Positions 1 through 24,115 of a stretch of 25,033 nt of DNA are shown here, piece after piece. The stretch covers positions 1 through 25,033 of the IMG/VR virus record IMGVR_UViG_3300030109_001482. The stretch is one strand, 5' to 3'. Positions within the stretch are counted from its first letter, which is position 1. Each line of letters begins with the position of its first letter. The position numbers and the translations under genes are program-made. The DNA comes from a virus. The notes beneath the pieces were generated by a model. The model made no database searches, was not told the DNA's origin, and saw nothing but the letters and a program-made list of their open reading frames with translations.

Positions 1-87
1 AAAATTATAATTGATTTATATGTACAAATAAAAGAAAAATACTATGAGTACCAAGATATTACAAGATATAAACTTAAATTAAAATAA
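1..87 (+). CDS. 3' end of an unknown early gene (partial)
   Basis: An open frame enters from the left edge in frame 1 and ends at TAA (85-87), leaving the last 28 residues of a protein rich in Lys, Tyr and Ile. The next gene starts 2 bases later (TAA-T-ATG), the same close packing seen in the rest of this operon, which supports a real gene end. The visible tail has no recognisable domain. It shows that the early plus-strand operon began outside the window. A chance open stretch of 28 codons in DNA this AT-rich is the main alternative. Confidence 0.55.
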   Translation, partial: KIIIDLYVQIKEKYYEYQDITRYKLKLK

Positions 88-88
88 T

Positions 89-439
89 ATGGAACTAATA
101 TGCAAAAACTATACATTCTATACAAATGGCATTGTATTAAATCGTGTCAAATATGATAGGCGCACTAGAACAACAGAGGGTTTGCCTGAATATATTGAAC
201 CACAAATAAAAATCTTTGGAACTTTAGAACAAGTACAAAAGGCGTTTGAAGAATATGAAAAAGCTACTGGACTTAATTTAAATGAAAAATTTACAATAAA
301 AGAAGAGCCAAAGTTCCACGAAGATGGAGAATTAAATTATCATTATAAAAGTGAAAAAGAAAATGAAAGAACTAAAAGATTCTTACAATCATTACATAAA
401 GAATATAAAGAAAACGGTAATAAAACTATAATAATATGA
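89..439 (+). CDS. hypothetical early protein, 116 aa
   Basis: This is a 116-residue soluble, highly charged protein (many Lys and Glu) with no signal peptide or membrane segment, and I do not recognise the family. The N-terminal half (about residues 1-60) looks like a small folded alpha/beta domain with alternating hydrophobic strands. The C-terminal half (65-110) is mostly charged and probably helical. It sits second in the early operon and its TGA overlaps the ATG of the next gene (ATGA), which points to coupled translation. The start has the A-rich leader (aaattaaaataat) common in this genome. From context a role in early takeover or DNA metabolism is possible, but nothing in the sequence shows one. 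Confidence 0.8.
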   Translation: MELICKNYTFYTNGIVLNRVKYDRRTRTTEGLPEYIEPQIKIFGTLEQVQKAFEEYEKATGLNLNEKFTIKEEPKFHEDGELNYHYKSEKENERTKRFLQSLHKEYKENGNKTIII

Positions 440-19694: not shown

Positions 19695-20233
19695 TTACCT
19701 GCATAATCAGTAGTGGATGGAATGTTACAAGTTTGGTAATCATTCATTAATAACACAGGCAAAGTAAATACCCAACCTACCGCAGCGTTGTCGAATCTTT
19801 CTGTAAAAGGTTCTATTGTAATATCTCCATCTTGTATAAAATAAGCGGCATCCTCATTTATTCCTATATTAGAATGGTAAAGAGCTTCTCCTGTTTTAAA
19901 TGTACTTATTATATCTTGACATATTTGTAAGCAATCAGACAATACAGTTTGTTCCTGTATTTGATCCTGATCTTGAGAAGTCGCTGTAGCTGAATTATCT
20001 TGTTGTTGTACCATATATACCAAATCCATAACAAATATTTGAAAATTCATAACCGTAGTCTTTTCGCCAAATACAGCATTAACTGGATTTATAAACATCA
20101 AAGGAAATAACGTGTTTTTTTCCAAATCAATTTCCCAAATATCTCCACTATTTACATTTTGTATTTGTTTATGATTAACGCCTATTTGCTTTAAAGTGTT
20201 AATTGTTTGATTATAGTCTTTAAATTTTGTCAT
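19691..20233 (-). CDS. putative tail terminator / tail-to-head joining protein
   Basis: The 180-residue protein has a pattern I associate with tail-completion proteins of Bacteroidota phages: a helix, GDIWEIDLEKNTLFPLMFI (about 30-48), a strand NFQIFVMDLVYM, a Gln/Asp-rich helix ending VLSDCLQICQDIISTF, DGDITIEPFTERFDNAAVGWV (135-155) and a hydrophobic strand with LPVLLMNDYQTCN. The EPFTERF-x-N-x-x-x-GW motif is the clearest. It would cap the finished tail tube for joining to the neck. It follows the tail chaperone with an ATGA overlap and precedes the gp10-like gene by three ORFs. Assignment is from remembered patterns plus context. Confidence 0.6.
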   Translation of the reverse strand: MTKFKDYNQTINTLKQIGVNHKQIQNVNSGDIWEIDLEKNTLFPLMFINPVNAVFGEKTTVMNFQIFVMDLVYMVQQQDNSATATSQDQDQIQEQTVLSDCLQICQDIISTFKTGEALYHSNIGINEDAAYFIQDGDITIEPFTERFDNAAVGWVFTLPVLLMNDYQTCNIPSTTDYAGK

Positions 20234-20475
20234 TTATTTATTGCTTTAGTTTCGTTTAAATCAGTTTCATAACTTAACCATGTTAAACATTCATATAGTG
20301 GTAAATTTGTAATTCTTTCTAAGTTCACTATTTCGCCATTTGTTAATTTATACATTATTGCAAACCATCCCCACTTCCTTGTAAATTGTTTTTCTGTACT
20401 TGCTCCACTACTTTTTTCTTGAGATTTAGTAAAAATGAGGGCAAACGTATCAACAGTTCTTTCCCTAAAATCCAA
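20230..20475 (-). CDS. -1 frame extension of the tail assembly chaperone (predicted frameshift product)
   Basis: This open frame has no ATG near its 5' end; the only start is TTG at 20475, right at a T9 run. It lies in the -1 frame of the chaperone gene and overlaps its last 121 bases. A -1 slip there would join 175 chaperone residues to these 81, giving a protein of about 256. Past the overlap it encodes RKWGWFAIMYKLTNGEI, then RITNLPLYECLTWLSYETDL, which looks like a conserved domain of its own. The layout equals the G/GT tail chaperones of lambda-type phages. The alternative is reinitiation at ATG 20355-20357, which shares a base with the chaperone stop (TAATG) and would give a 40-residue peptide lacking the KWGW part. 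Confidence 0.6.
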   Translation of the reverse strand: MDFRERTVDTFALIFTKSQEKSSGASTEKQFTRKWGWFAIMYKLTNGEIVNLERITNLPLYECLTWLSYETDLNETKAINK

Positions 20476-20999
20476 AAAAAAACCAAAGAATTATGAACAT
20501 CCCTAGCTTTCATACTCTTAAATATTTCCGCTCTTACTTCTGCTTTTGTTCCATCATAAGCTTCAATAGAATAACTATTATTTTTCTTTTCTGTTATTGG
20601 TCTATACAATACACTCATAACTTTATCCAAATTATCTTGTAATCCTGCATCTATGTAATTTTCAATGTCCGCATATTCGCCTAATGTAATAAGTTCCAAA
20701 TTAGGATGGAATCCATATTCTTTATTATCTATTTCTATAATTCTATTAAATATCGTATTTTCTTCTGCTTGTAGTTTTGATAAATATTTCATTAACTCCG
20801 CAGTGTCATTTAACGTTAATTGCTTTAATATCTTTTCAGGAATATCTGATAATAGTTTTATTGTTTCTAGCGCCTCCTTACTTTTAGTTTTAGTTTTAGA
20901 TGTTATTAATTTTGCCCATTTCTCCAATGTCACATCATTCCAACTCCTAATTACATTGTATTTTCTTTTTTTATTCTCTTTTGTAATCGTGATTTGCAT
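20355..20999 (-). CDS. putative tail assembly chaperone (G-like)
   Basis: The 214-residue, mostly helical protein has a WNDVTLEKWAKLITSKTK segment near the start, a middle with NKEYGFHPNLELITLGEYAD, then LQDNLDKVMSVLYRPITEK and DVHNSLVFFWILGKELL. A helical protein with a LTLGEYADIE/VMSVLYRPI core, upstream of tail genes and overlapped by a -1 frame ORF, fits the tail chaperones that coat the tape measure during tail assembly. It ends NNLQGSGDGLQ. The heptamer T TTT TTT at 20481-20475 lies in its reading frame. The start is preceded by TTCTATTATATATT, shared with the gene at 8391. It is the first gene after the terminase and the small-RNA gap. Confidence 0.62.
   Translation of the reverse strand: MQITITKENKKRKYNVIRSWNDVTLEKWAKLITSKTKTKSKEALETIKLLSDIPEKILKQLTLNDTAELMKYLSKLQAEENTIFNRIIEIDNKEYGFHPNLELITLGEYADIENYIDAGLQDNLDKVMSVLYRPITEKKNNSYSIEAYDGTKAEVRAEIFKSMKARDVHNSLVFFWILGKELLIRLPSFLLNLKKKVVEQVQKNNLQGSGDGLQ
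20474..20482 (-). promoter_or_regulatory. predicted -1 ribosomal frameshift site (T9 run)
   Basis: On the minus strand the sequence reads TTG GTT TTT TTT TGG in the chaperone frame. T TTT TTT (20481-20475) is a perfect X-XXY-YYZ heptamer with both tRNAs able to re-pair after a -1 step, and the new frame stays open for 81 codons. A second A6 run (20412-20417) lies in the overlap, but its phase gives G-AAA-AAA, a poorer slip site. I see no strong stem just downstream. Confidence 0.55.
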
Positions 21000-21017
21000 A
21001 ATATATAATAGAATTTT

Positions 21018-21046
21018 TTGTTATTTAGTTTAAAAATGTATATTTG
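21018..21046 (+). promoter_or_regulatory. Bacteroidota-type promoter, plus strand
   Basis: TTG (21018-21020, within TTTTTTG), an 18-base spacer and TATATTTG (21039-21046) match the -33/-7 consensus TTG-N17-23-TAnnTTTG of Bacteroidota housekeeping promoters with no mismatch. The start would be near 21052. The only thing downstream on this strand is a hairpin with six T at 21086-21110. It points against every gene nearby, so it does not serve a coding gene. Confidence 0.55.
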
Positions 21047-21051
21047 TTGCC

Positions 21052-21110
21052 TAAATGTGTTTTTGTGTTGATGTGTTATAAAGAGGTCGCTCCTAGTGGG
21101 CGGCTTTTTT
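21052..21110 (+). ncRNA. candidate short RNA opposing the late operon
   Basis: A perfect promoter match ends at 21046 and a terminator ends at 21110, so the predicted RNA is about 58 bases. It has a T/G-rich single-stranded 5' part (ATGTGTTTTTGTGTTGATG) and a 3' hairpin. It lies in the 110-base gap between the terminase large subunit and the tail chaperone, one of only two gaps over 90 bases in the late block. Its last two bases overlap the terminase stop codon on the other strand. Promoter, body and terminator together are the evidence. Its target and role are not visible. Confidence 0.5.
21082..21110 (+). terminator. intrinsic terminator, plus strand
   Basis: GTCGCTC (21086-21092) and GGGCGGC (21098-21104) pair as a 7-bp stem with two G-U pairs and a 5-base loop, followed by TTTTTT (21105-21110). 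An A-rich stretch before it (AAGAG) can extend the stem into the T run. It is one of the few G-C-rich hairpins in the window. On the minus strand the hairpin has no T run, only CTCTTTATAA, so it would be weak as an end for the terminase transcript. Confidence 0.65.
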
Positions 21111-22419
21111 ATTGCACAAAATATTTACCATAATTACTATCTATCTCATAGTAACAACGCATAGCTAATGCATCGGCATAATCAGGCGATCTTCCTAAAA
21201 TTGCTTTGATTGTGTCCTTTGGTATAATCTGTAATTTAGTATCCTTATCAGCGTCCTTTGTTCTTACTTGCTCTAGTTCTTCTATAATATCATTTTTAAT
21301 TCCTATGTCTTTACAAGTGATACCTATTTGTCCTTTATTTATTAAATCAGCTAATTTATAAAAACATTGTGTTTTTAAATTTTGATAATTTTCTCCTTTT
21401 AATGCTCTTGAATTATTTACAAATCCTTGGCATCTTAAATAATCTTTTACACCTCCACCTACTCCATCTTCATCCACAATTATATTTCTTAATGGCACTT
21501 GATTCTCTTGTTGTAATCTCCTAACCTCCTCCACAACATCATTTATAGACGATTTAAGCAAAGATTTAATATTTATAATATGTAACCCTTTCCATACCAT
21601 TATAACCGTTTTATCGCTTCCAAAACGCGCTACATCGCAACTTATATATTTATCTCCTTTTATTCCTGTTTGATTGAATAAGTTTATAATCGCATCGTAT
21701 TGAATTAAACTATCGTCTGTCGCATCATATTCCCAATTACCATATAATAACCTTTGTTTACTTAACTCATCTAAGGTTTGTAATTGTGTTTTGTAATATT
21801 TGGATATATATTGATTATCGTCTACTAAACTTTGTATAAATTTTCTATGTGGTTTTTGTTTCCCCTCTTTTGATGGTCTATAATATTGTGTATATACCCA
21901 ATTCTTAGCAGGATTACAAGTCATTAACAATTTAGGAATTATATTATATTGATCTAATTTATACCTCATTCTTGAAGAAACAATATTTTTTGCCTTTTCT
22001 GTTATTTGGTTACATTCATCTATGAAAGCGCCAGTTAATTCTAATGATCCTAAGTTGTCAAAGTTTCTGTCTGATGGATATAGGAATAAATCCTTAAGCA
22101 TTATTTCAGATTTATTATAAAATGTTATAACATTGGAACTTCCGTTAAAATGGTAATGCTTTTCTGCTTTGATTCCCCACTCTTCACATACTTCAAAAAA
22201 TGTATTTAATGTAGTTTTCTTTAATGAATCTAATTTACTTCTACCCATTAAATATCTAGTTTTAGGATATTTTAGACACATTAATATTAACCAACTACAT
22301 CCTACCCATGATTTACCTCCTCCTGCTGCTCCGCCAAATAATACTTCTGTGGTTTTTTTATCAAATAAGTACTCTATTGCCTCTTGTTGAGTGAGTGTAA
22401 ATTCTGCATTAATATTCAA
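21109..22419 (-). CDS. terL: terminase large subunit (ATPase and nuclease)
   Basis: All active-site motifs are present. The ATPase has Walker A GGAAGGGKS (29-37), Walker B AFIDE (131-135) with Glu135 as catalytic carboxylate, and the coupling motif LLMTCNP (164-170). The RNase H-like nuclease has three acidic positions: D262 (SCDVARFGSDKT), D316 (IIVDEDGVGGG) and D413/D416 (SPDYADALAM). At 436 residues it is at the compact end of the family but complete. It pumps DNA into the prohead through the portal and cuts the concatemer. Its start overlaps the small subunit by 11 bases. The stop codon overlaps the terminator of the opposing small RNA. Confidence 0.93.
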   Translation of the reverse strand: MNINAEFTLTQQEAIEYLFDKKTTEVLFGGAAGGGKSWVGCSWLILMCLKYPKTRYLMGRSKLDSLKKTTLNTFFEVCEEWGIKAEKHYHFNGSSNVITFYNKSEIMLKDLFLYPSDRNFDNLGSLELTGAFIDECNQITEKAKNIVSSRMRYKLDQYNIIPKLLMTCNPAKNWVYTQYYRPSKEGKQKPHRKFIQSLVDDNQYISKYYKTQLQTLDELSKQRLLYGNWEYDATDDSLIQYDAIINLFNQTGIKGDKYISCDVARFGSDKTVIMVWKGLHIINIKSLLKSSINDVVEEVRRLQQENQVPLRNIIVDEDGVGGGVKDYLRCQGFVNNSRALKGENYQNLKTQCFYKLADLINKGQIGITCKDIGIKNDIIEELEQVRTKDADKDTKLQIIPKDTIKAILGRSPDYADALAMRCYYEIDSNYGKYFVQ

Positions 22420-22756: not shown

Positions 22757-24115
22757 TTATTTACAATATTTATTTAAATGTATATTATAATCAAAACCAA
22801 GTTCATTTAATATTCTTTTTATTTTATTTTGTGGAAATGCTTGGTTACCATAACCTAAACTACATATAAATTTCCTAAATTCATTAAGATCAACTATAGT
22901 TCTATTATTTAAATATTTTTTTATTTCTTCCTTTGTTTTATCTTTTTTAATTCTATCTATTACATTGCCTTTTTTGTAATAATCAGTTAATTTTATAAGA
23001 TTTTGGAAATATTTATCTATTTTTTTACTATGTGTTTCTAATAATAGTTTTTTCTTTTCTTTATAATCATAACTTCGTATATTATTTTTTAATATATCTT
23101 TTAACATATGATATTGTTCCTCATTTGTTTCAAATAGATATGGATAGTCCTTATCAACTAATTCTGGAAATGTAACTCTATTAGGCGCTACTATTACTTG
23201 GTCATTCATAATACTTTCTACTATACTTATGCAAAATGTTTCATGTCTGCTATTAATTACATTTGCATGGCATTTGGATAATTCTACTAAATAATCTGAA
23301 TGTAAGCTAAATGATTTAACCTCCGTATATGGTTTACTTTCTGCTACTGATATATTGCTCCTATCTCCTGCTGTAATTATTACTTGAAATTTTTCTCCTT
23401 CTTCCCATAATCTATCCCATACAGCAAAAGTATCTTTCCAATTTTTATATCCGTCTAACCTATGATTATATATAAAAGTAAATTTATCATATTTTTTAGT
23501 CGATTTTATTTCATTACAATATCCTCCTATATCTACTATACTTTTTTCTTTTATTTTCTCCACTTCCTTAGGTAATAAAATATCTTCCGCCTCTTCAATT
23601 AACATATTATAACAATGTTTAGTATGAAAATAATTTACATCCGCACACATACTTCCTATAATCTGATCCAACATAATATGTCTACAAGGTTCATAATTAG
23701 TAAGTCTTTCTAGGCTCCTATGTATTACATAATGATGGTAATTGAAAACTTTTACTCTTAAATCTGCATCCAGAGTGTCTATAAAATACTTAAAATGATG
23801 TCCTTGTTCTACTACATTATTCCAAATAACATCAATTGCGTATTTTTTGAATATTTCTCGTAATACATTTGTATTGAAGTGTGTAACTTGTTGCCTTTTA
23901 TTTCTAGGAAATGGCATTTGTATTACTTTGACTGAGGGGCTTAGATCATCTTTTATGTATCTCCTATTTTTATCCAATATAAGCAAAAAATTATATTTAT
24001 TAGTTTTGGCTAATTCATTGCATAATTGTTTTATTATTATATAATTGCTATCAGCATTTATATTATCTACTGAAAACATAGGATATATTAGTATATTTAA
24101 TTTTGGATTCTGCAT
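22757..24115 (-). CDS. GT-B fold glycosyltransferase (GT4-like) with extra C-terminal domain
   Basis: The 452-residue protein has two Rossmann-like halves. The N-terminal half starts LNILIYPMFSVDNINADS; the C-terminal half has FIYNHRLDGYKNWKDTFAVW (about 214-233) and the donor-binding EX7E motif with E292 and E300 (HETFCISIVES), then VIVAPNRVTFPEL. This is the retaining GT4-type arrangement. It moves a sugar from a nucleotide donor to an acceptor that cannot be read from the sequence. About 60 residues at the C-terminus (395-452, KKYLNNRTIVDLNEF, ILNELGFDYN) look like a small helical, perhaps nucleic-acid-binding, module not usual in GT4 enzymes. It sits between a ParB-like gene (19-base overlap) and the terminase, so phage DNA is one possible acceptor; host or virion glycans are another. 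Confidence 0.78.
   Translation of the reverse strand: MQNPKLNILIYPMFSVDNINADSNYIIIKQLCNELAKTNKYNFLLILDKNRRYIKDDLSPSVKVIQMPFPRNKRQQVTHFNTNVLREIFKKYAIDVIWNNVVEQGHHFKYFIDTLDADLRVKVFNYHHYVIHRSLERLTNYEPCRHIMLDQIIGSMCADVNYFHTKHCYNMLIEEAEDILLPKEVEKIKEKSIVDIGGYCNEIKSTKKYDKFTFIYNHRLDGYKNWKDTFAVWDRLWEEGEKFQVIITAGDRSNISVAESKPYTEVKSFSLHSDYLVELSKCHANVINSRHETFCISIVESIMNDQVIVAPNRVTFPELVDKDYPYLFETNEEQYHMLKDILKNNIRSYDYKEKKKLLLETHSKKIDKYFQNLIKLTDYYKKGNVIDRIKKDKTKEEIKKYLNNRTIVDLNEFRKFICSLGYGNQAFPQNKIKRILNELGFDYNIHLNKYCK

Follow-up and report, generated by a model that had tools for sequence, protein, structure and literature searches.

The locus between the terminase gene terL and gene X raises the question of what a phage gains from a short transcription unit that seems to point against its own late operon. 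The DNA analyzed here, referred to as the window, is a stretch of 25,033 nt (positions 1 to 25,033) of the virus record IMGVR_UViG_3300030109_001482, on which genes were called by a simple ATG-based procedure. The whole record (G000) has 29,804 bases and its two ends (window 1-99 and record 29706-29804) overlap over 99 nt with one mismatch; the genome, of about 29.7 kb, is therefore probably complete and circular. A first-pass annotation had placed a self-contained short RNA gene in a real gap of the late block, on the strand opposite to the nearby genes. The gap is real: terL, which ends at 21109, and X, which starts at 20999, are both minus-strand genes. The features of the region are the following.

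20355-20999, minus strand: gene X, 214 aa, phrog_32199 (function not assigned in PHROG), the constant neighbor of the small-RNA unit
21000-21034, minus strand: conserved block TAAACTAAA...TTCTATTATATATT, directly 5' of the X start codon, kept with and without the small RNA, overlapping the small-RNA promoter back to back
21018-21020, plus strand: TTG, -33 element of the putative small-RNA promoter, inside the conserved upstream block of X and fitting the Bacteroidetes sigma-A consensus
21039-21046, plus strand: TATATTTG, -7 element of the same promoter, 18 nt away from TTG, near-invariant among 29 units less than 85% identical
21050-21112, plus strand: predicted small RNA (sRNA), about 58 nt to the T run, proposed from the promoter position, the terminator and the conservation of the unit in relatives
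21055-21065, plus strand: predicted seed ATGTGTTTTTG, exact reverse complement of CAAAAACACAT at 29513-29523 of the record
21078-21112, plus strand: intrinsic terminator, a hairpin with G.U pairs whose T run (21105-21110) overlaps the terL stop codon
21109-22419, minus strand: terL, terminase large subunit, a constant neighbor in the clade of the window and elsewhere replaced by a gene without a tblastn match to this terL

The promoter that had been annotated without mismatch, TTG-N18-TATATTTG at 21018-21046 (+), was confirmed and agrees with the sigma-A promoter published for Flavobacterium, TTTG/TAnnTTTG (PMC6847099; PMC9723704). Judging from its position, the sRNA would start at 21050-21055. 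The G-C-rich hairpin with its T run was recovered as well: the fold of 21053-21113 has a minimum free energy of -17.9 kcal/mol (z -4.0), which was equaled by none of 200 shuffles. The opposite strand of the hairpin region folds more weakly (-10.3 kcal/mol) because its G.U pairs turn into A.C, and a minus-strand terminator serving terL was ruled out by this weaker fold and by the missing T run on that side. A generic promoter and terminator scan reported neither element; its promoter model is of the E. coli sigma-70 type, which explains why the sRNA promoter was missed, and its terminator rule missed the hairpin. A search of Rfam gave no match in the window at the gathering score, the relaxed hits to the region being far under the cut-offs. 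No conserved reading frame was found on either strand of the unit, which rules out a conserved small ORF, whether in the RNA itself or read from the late strand. As would be expected of a trans-acting sRNA, the sequence thus holds both a promoter and an intrinsic terminator of its own.

The promoter had also been described as host-type and early, and this description holds. Early genes of the window genome share the TATATTTG box with the sRNA (record 29493-29500 (+) and near 29379 (-)). By contrast, a different block is found ahead of several late genes, X included. In 17 genomes this block, which ends in ...TTCTATTATATAnT followed by ATG, stands before X and, per genome, before several further late genes, frequently leaving 0-2 nt to the start codon; in the window it is also present upstream of 8391 (-). 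It looks like a late promoter, whose mRNAs would be nearly leaderless, or like a special start signal, and the copy at 21000-21034 (-) is probably a late promoter or start signal of X. Three further observations were made in the surroundings. X overlaps an 81-aa frame by about 120 nt near a T run (GGTTTTTTTTTGG, minus strand; window 20230-20999 (-)), possibly a tail-assembly chaperone pair expressed via programmed frameshifting. In the late block, terS and a ParB-like gene flank a glycosyltransferase-like gene (window 22757-24115 (-)). Finally, a hairpin, GGGGGTGTAAAAACCCCC, recurs before early or structural genes (record G000 29055-29110 (-), and also in L389, L437 and G037).

The synteny of the region was then compared in 80 viral contigs whose terL is 80-86% identical to that of the window. 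The conserved promoter-hairpin pair that had been proposed as a check was found between terL and X in 66 of the 80, which supports a self-contained short RNA gene. In these relatives the TATATTTG box lies at a fixed distance of 38-42 nt from the X start (45 or 52 in a few). The 66 contigs hold 49 distinct units whose stem sequences are unrelated, and 47 of these 49 fold into a stronger hairpin on the sRNA strand than on the other. Among representative hairpins the figure is 27/29, and the 8 nt that follow the stem contain 6.0 vs 3.1 T. The unit is cleanly absent from 13/80 relatives, where the gap measures only 30-41 nt; such genomes show that some lineages can do without it. Loss of the promoter from a gap that is itself kept, which would have spoken against the annotation, was looked for in the 80 relatives and not seen: a long gap always comes with the promoter, and both are lost together. 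Judged from these comparisons, the promoter-terminator unit is more than chance. In 17 genomes scanned in full it was the only conserved promoter-terminator pair (shuffles gave 0-0.4 per genome); two other hits, in G002 and G004, lie at unrelated sites of genomes without the unit, and no second intergenic copy was found at a conserved site.

A scan with gene X revealed phages that carry the unit although their upstream gene has no match to this terL; the unit therefore travels with X and not with one terL. On the X tree, a quick tree with many weak branches, its presence and absence require at least 12 changes. A short T-rich remnant, TTTAGTTTAACGATTTTTTTTACTG, occupies the site in eight genomes without the unit (L273, L287, L306, L307, L309, L317, L319 and L320), which suggests deletion. 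In 11b-type phages, whose terL is 53-60% identical, the gap before the next gene is without the unit. No terL relatives were found in bacterial genome contigs and no cultured relatives above 56% terL identity. Besides, one contig (L274) has at the site of the unit an unrelated insertion, terL and X being 459 nt apart, with another flavobacterial-type promoter box.

The anatomy of the unit was deduced from the 29 units less than 85% identical: the TATATTTG box is followed by C-N-N-C/A-G-TTTT, a leader of about 16-34 nt and the hairpin. The leader is U-rich and its sequence is not conserved family-wide, a single common leader being ruled out past the first ~6 nt. However, UUCAU, the complement of AUGAA, occurs in 18/33 leaders against 4.6 expected from dinucleotide shuffles (0/300 shuffles equal this), and attention was therefore turned to start codons. 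A first pairing test on all start regions gave a weak signal, and a later one p 0.01. The leaders of 26 genomes were compared with the start regions of 41 gene families, using matched vs mismatched leaders, and the best own-leader pairing among the 41 was found at the start region of the EATN family (z -5.4). When start regions were taken from behind intergenic early-type promoters without regard to the gene, 18 genomes gave p 1.8e-6. As computed here, the pairing signal is located in early-gene starts.

EATN is a small early gene of about 81-87 aa (in the window genome, MYSEFRLLNAINAKEAKKAI...) that lies directly behind an early promoter in many genomes. It forms an orphan family common in marine flavophages (loci L384-L449). 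Its protein has no match in Pfam or PHROG, and its confidently predicted structure (pLDDT 86.6) is all-helical, with no match in the PDB and one unnamed viral match. In nine discovery genomes, the ungapped genome-wide rank of the EATN start region for the own leader was 11, 1, 4, 1, 6, 7, 1, 41 and 2, against median ranks of 39-512 for swapped leaders, and the pairing exceeded that of dinucleotide-shuffled leaders (Fisher p 1.1e-8). The pairing of G035 is weak (rank 41, p 0.07); in G013 leader and target pair exactly over 13 nt, and in G015, where another small gene takes the lead early position, over 12 nt spanning the start codon. The KEKY family also matched the leader (p 0.001, in the discovery data, before the hold-out). 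For a clade with GTTTTC...AAGTTTTTGTTT leaders, from which EATN is missing, an alternative early target reached p 0.08-0.48, so that alternative early targets in genomes without EATN are suggestive at this stage.

In the window genome, 21055-21065 pairs over 11 bp with record 29513-29523, in the 5' UTR of the lead plus-strand early gene, the EATN gene of this genome. The paired site lies 6-16 nt before the AUG, the gene starting at 29529, outside the window. The predicted duplex has an energy of -18.7 kcal/mol, which is not the best of the genome, as 99/7375 windows do as well. Besides, two early genes on the minus strand (record 29342 and 29057) have start regions that match 21060-21069.

EATN had been selected from the 41 families prior to the hold-out, with the data already seen. 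New contigs with the EATN gene were therefore collected, and in 13 new leader clades the pairing was found again (p 3.6e-5; leader-swap test p 0.0014). With all 22 leader clades, complementarity gave p 2e-11 and a control for same-sense similarity p 0.98, while in a swap test of 21 clades the own leaders won with z 6.0, none of 100,000 permutations being as good (p about 1e-5); these values are to be read with the composition in mind, since U-rich leaders facing A-rich targets favor matches and shuffles and leader swaps control for this imperfectly. The pairing is concentrated at leader nt 2-14 and at positions -12 to +5 of the target AUG, and it overlaps the AUG in 13/22 clades. Paired change is illustrated by L404 (target AAAACAAAAACA, leader TGTTTTTGTTTT) and its relative L398 (target AAACCCAAAAAC, leader GTTTTTTGGTTT), in which bases are altered on both sides and most pairs are kept. 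In L437, L397, L412 and L439, no significant pairing with the own EATN start region was detected. Overall, a short seed matches distant mRNAs beyond what shuffled or swapped leaders achieve, as is expected of a trans-acting sRNA. The first-pass reading consequently stands in part: the short RNA gene, its early-type promoter and the conserved pair hold, whereas the targets it had suggested (late mRNA, host mRNA or packaging) are not supported, the leader complementarity pointing to the phage's own early start regions.

We consider it probable, if far from certain, that the unit at 21018-21112 is a free-standing phage small-RNA gene and that its product is a seed-type sRNA acting in trans to block the translation of early mRNAs, chiefly that of EATN. 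From sequence we infer the production of the RNA, its pairing, the repression, and their timing and dose. In this mechanism, the host RNA polymerase would transcribe an RNA of about 58 nt from the sigma-A type promoter, consisting of a short, U-rich, single-stranded leader and the terminator hairpin. The leader seed (about nt 2-14) would base-pair in trans with the A-rich 5' UTR and AUG of early phage mRNAs, the main target being the small early gene of the EATN family, usually directly behind an early promoter. Such pairing would block ribosome binding and so lower early-gene expression. Translation in flavobacteria does without Shine-Dalgarno sites and starts on unstructured A-rich regions (PMC6847099); a U-rich antisense RNA covering the AUG would stop initiation at such starts. 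The promoter being of the early-gene type, the RNA may be present from early infection on, and its dose would climb with replication because the gene lies on phage DNA that would be constantly read by the host polymerase.

The same leader might instead be aimed mainly at host mRNAs. An anti-AUG, U-rich leader would suit many flavobacterial starts, which are A-rich and without Shine-Dalgarno sites (PMC6847099), and known phage sRNAs such as PreS act on host mRNAs (PMC12197685). However, the match to the phage's own early starts is genome-specific. We regard host mRNAs as an unlikely main target, although this reading is compatible with an sRNA directed at early phage genes and does not exclude it. 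PreS of lambda and VpdS of VP882 are phage-encoded, free-standing sRNAs that pair in trans (PMC12197685), like the predicted sRNA. They depend on Hfq, have host or mixed targets and belong to Enterobacteria and Vibrio, whereas the sRNA described here differs in host phylum and in promoters, and its leader is directed at the phage's own early starts.

A cis-acting antisense RNA, pairing over its full length with the terL-X late mRNA and steering cleavage or expression of terL or X, has well-known precedents. Lambda OOP, a 77-nt RNA that has a promoter and a terminator to itself and runs antisense to its neighbors (PMC5869508, PMC12197685), is built like the predicted sRNA, as is P22 sar (68-69 nt, from a gap between two genes), which prevents initiation by pairing with a translation start (PMC12197685). 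The predicted RNA shares with them its short length, its own promoter and terminator and its antisense orientation to the neighbors; by position it is perfectly complementary to the terL-X spacer, to which the unit is always confined, and it touches the terL stop codon. However, OOP overlaps the coding end and sar the start of its target, whereas the predicted RNA covers only a few nt of terL, its stop codon included, and the spacer, and it misses the X start, beginning about 53 nt upstream of it. OOP acts in cis on the overlapping cII mRNA and sar is encoded opposite its target ant; the predicted targets of the sRNA lie elsewhere in the phage genome, kilobases off, and co-vary with the leader, although pairing in cis requires no match elsewhere. 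OOP and the sRNA have no apparent sequence relation. Besides, the short gap of genomes without the unit indicates that the spacer only houses it. An action in cis thus appears quite improbable.

Transcription alone could also matter, with the RNA as a by-product: polymerase bound at the sRNA promoter would silence the late start of X early in infection, and the terminator would shield terL from antisense transcription. The fixed distance from the box to X and the overlap of the promoter with the conserved block agree with this, but a constant spacing is also what results when unit and block are merely joined. Among related phages, conservation is higher in the leader (0.78) than in the hairpin (0.71), the fourfold sites of X (0.60) or shuffled leaders (0.58), and the leader matches early start regions, which is not expected of a by-product. 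We therefore find this explanation hard to credit. Least likely is that the shared sequence serves as an operator in the DNA, bound by a phage regulator and inverted between its sites downstream of the early promoters and of the sRNA promoter: both promoters are host-type and inverted copies would resemble reverse complements, but the pairing spans the AUG (13/22) instead of keeping a constant position relative to the promoter, several targets (L432, L389 and L437) lack a promoter immediately before them, and same-sense similarity is absent (p 0.98).

The preferred reading, an sRNA acting in trans on early mRNAs, finds its closest functional likeness in T4 RegA, which acts at the same site, the A+U-rich unstructured starts of many early mRNAs, and blocks initiation (PMC3014915). 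RegA is a protein whereas the unit has no conserved reading frame, and the likeness is functional only. More tentatively, and with slightly less than even confidence, the units may represent an undescribed sRNA family of marine flavophages: an RNA counterpart of RegA, made by the host polymerase and dosed by genome copy number, that would act on the start codons of early mRNAs to repress them, its seed co-evolving with the start regions of each lineage. Little is known about trans-acting sRNAs that lytic-type phages direct against their own early genes, and in the literature searched none was found described for phages of Bacteroidetes. Dozens of uncultured genomes allow the paired change of seed and distant target to be followed, and the mechanism is therefore directly testable, with a two-plasmid reporter and compensatory mutations. 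The proposed mode of action would show how small RNAs can act in a phylum without Shine-Dalgarno sites, namely by covering A-rich start regions.
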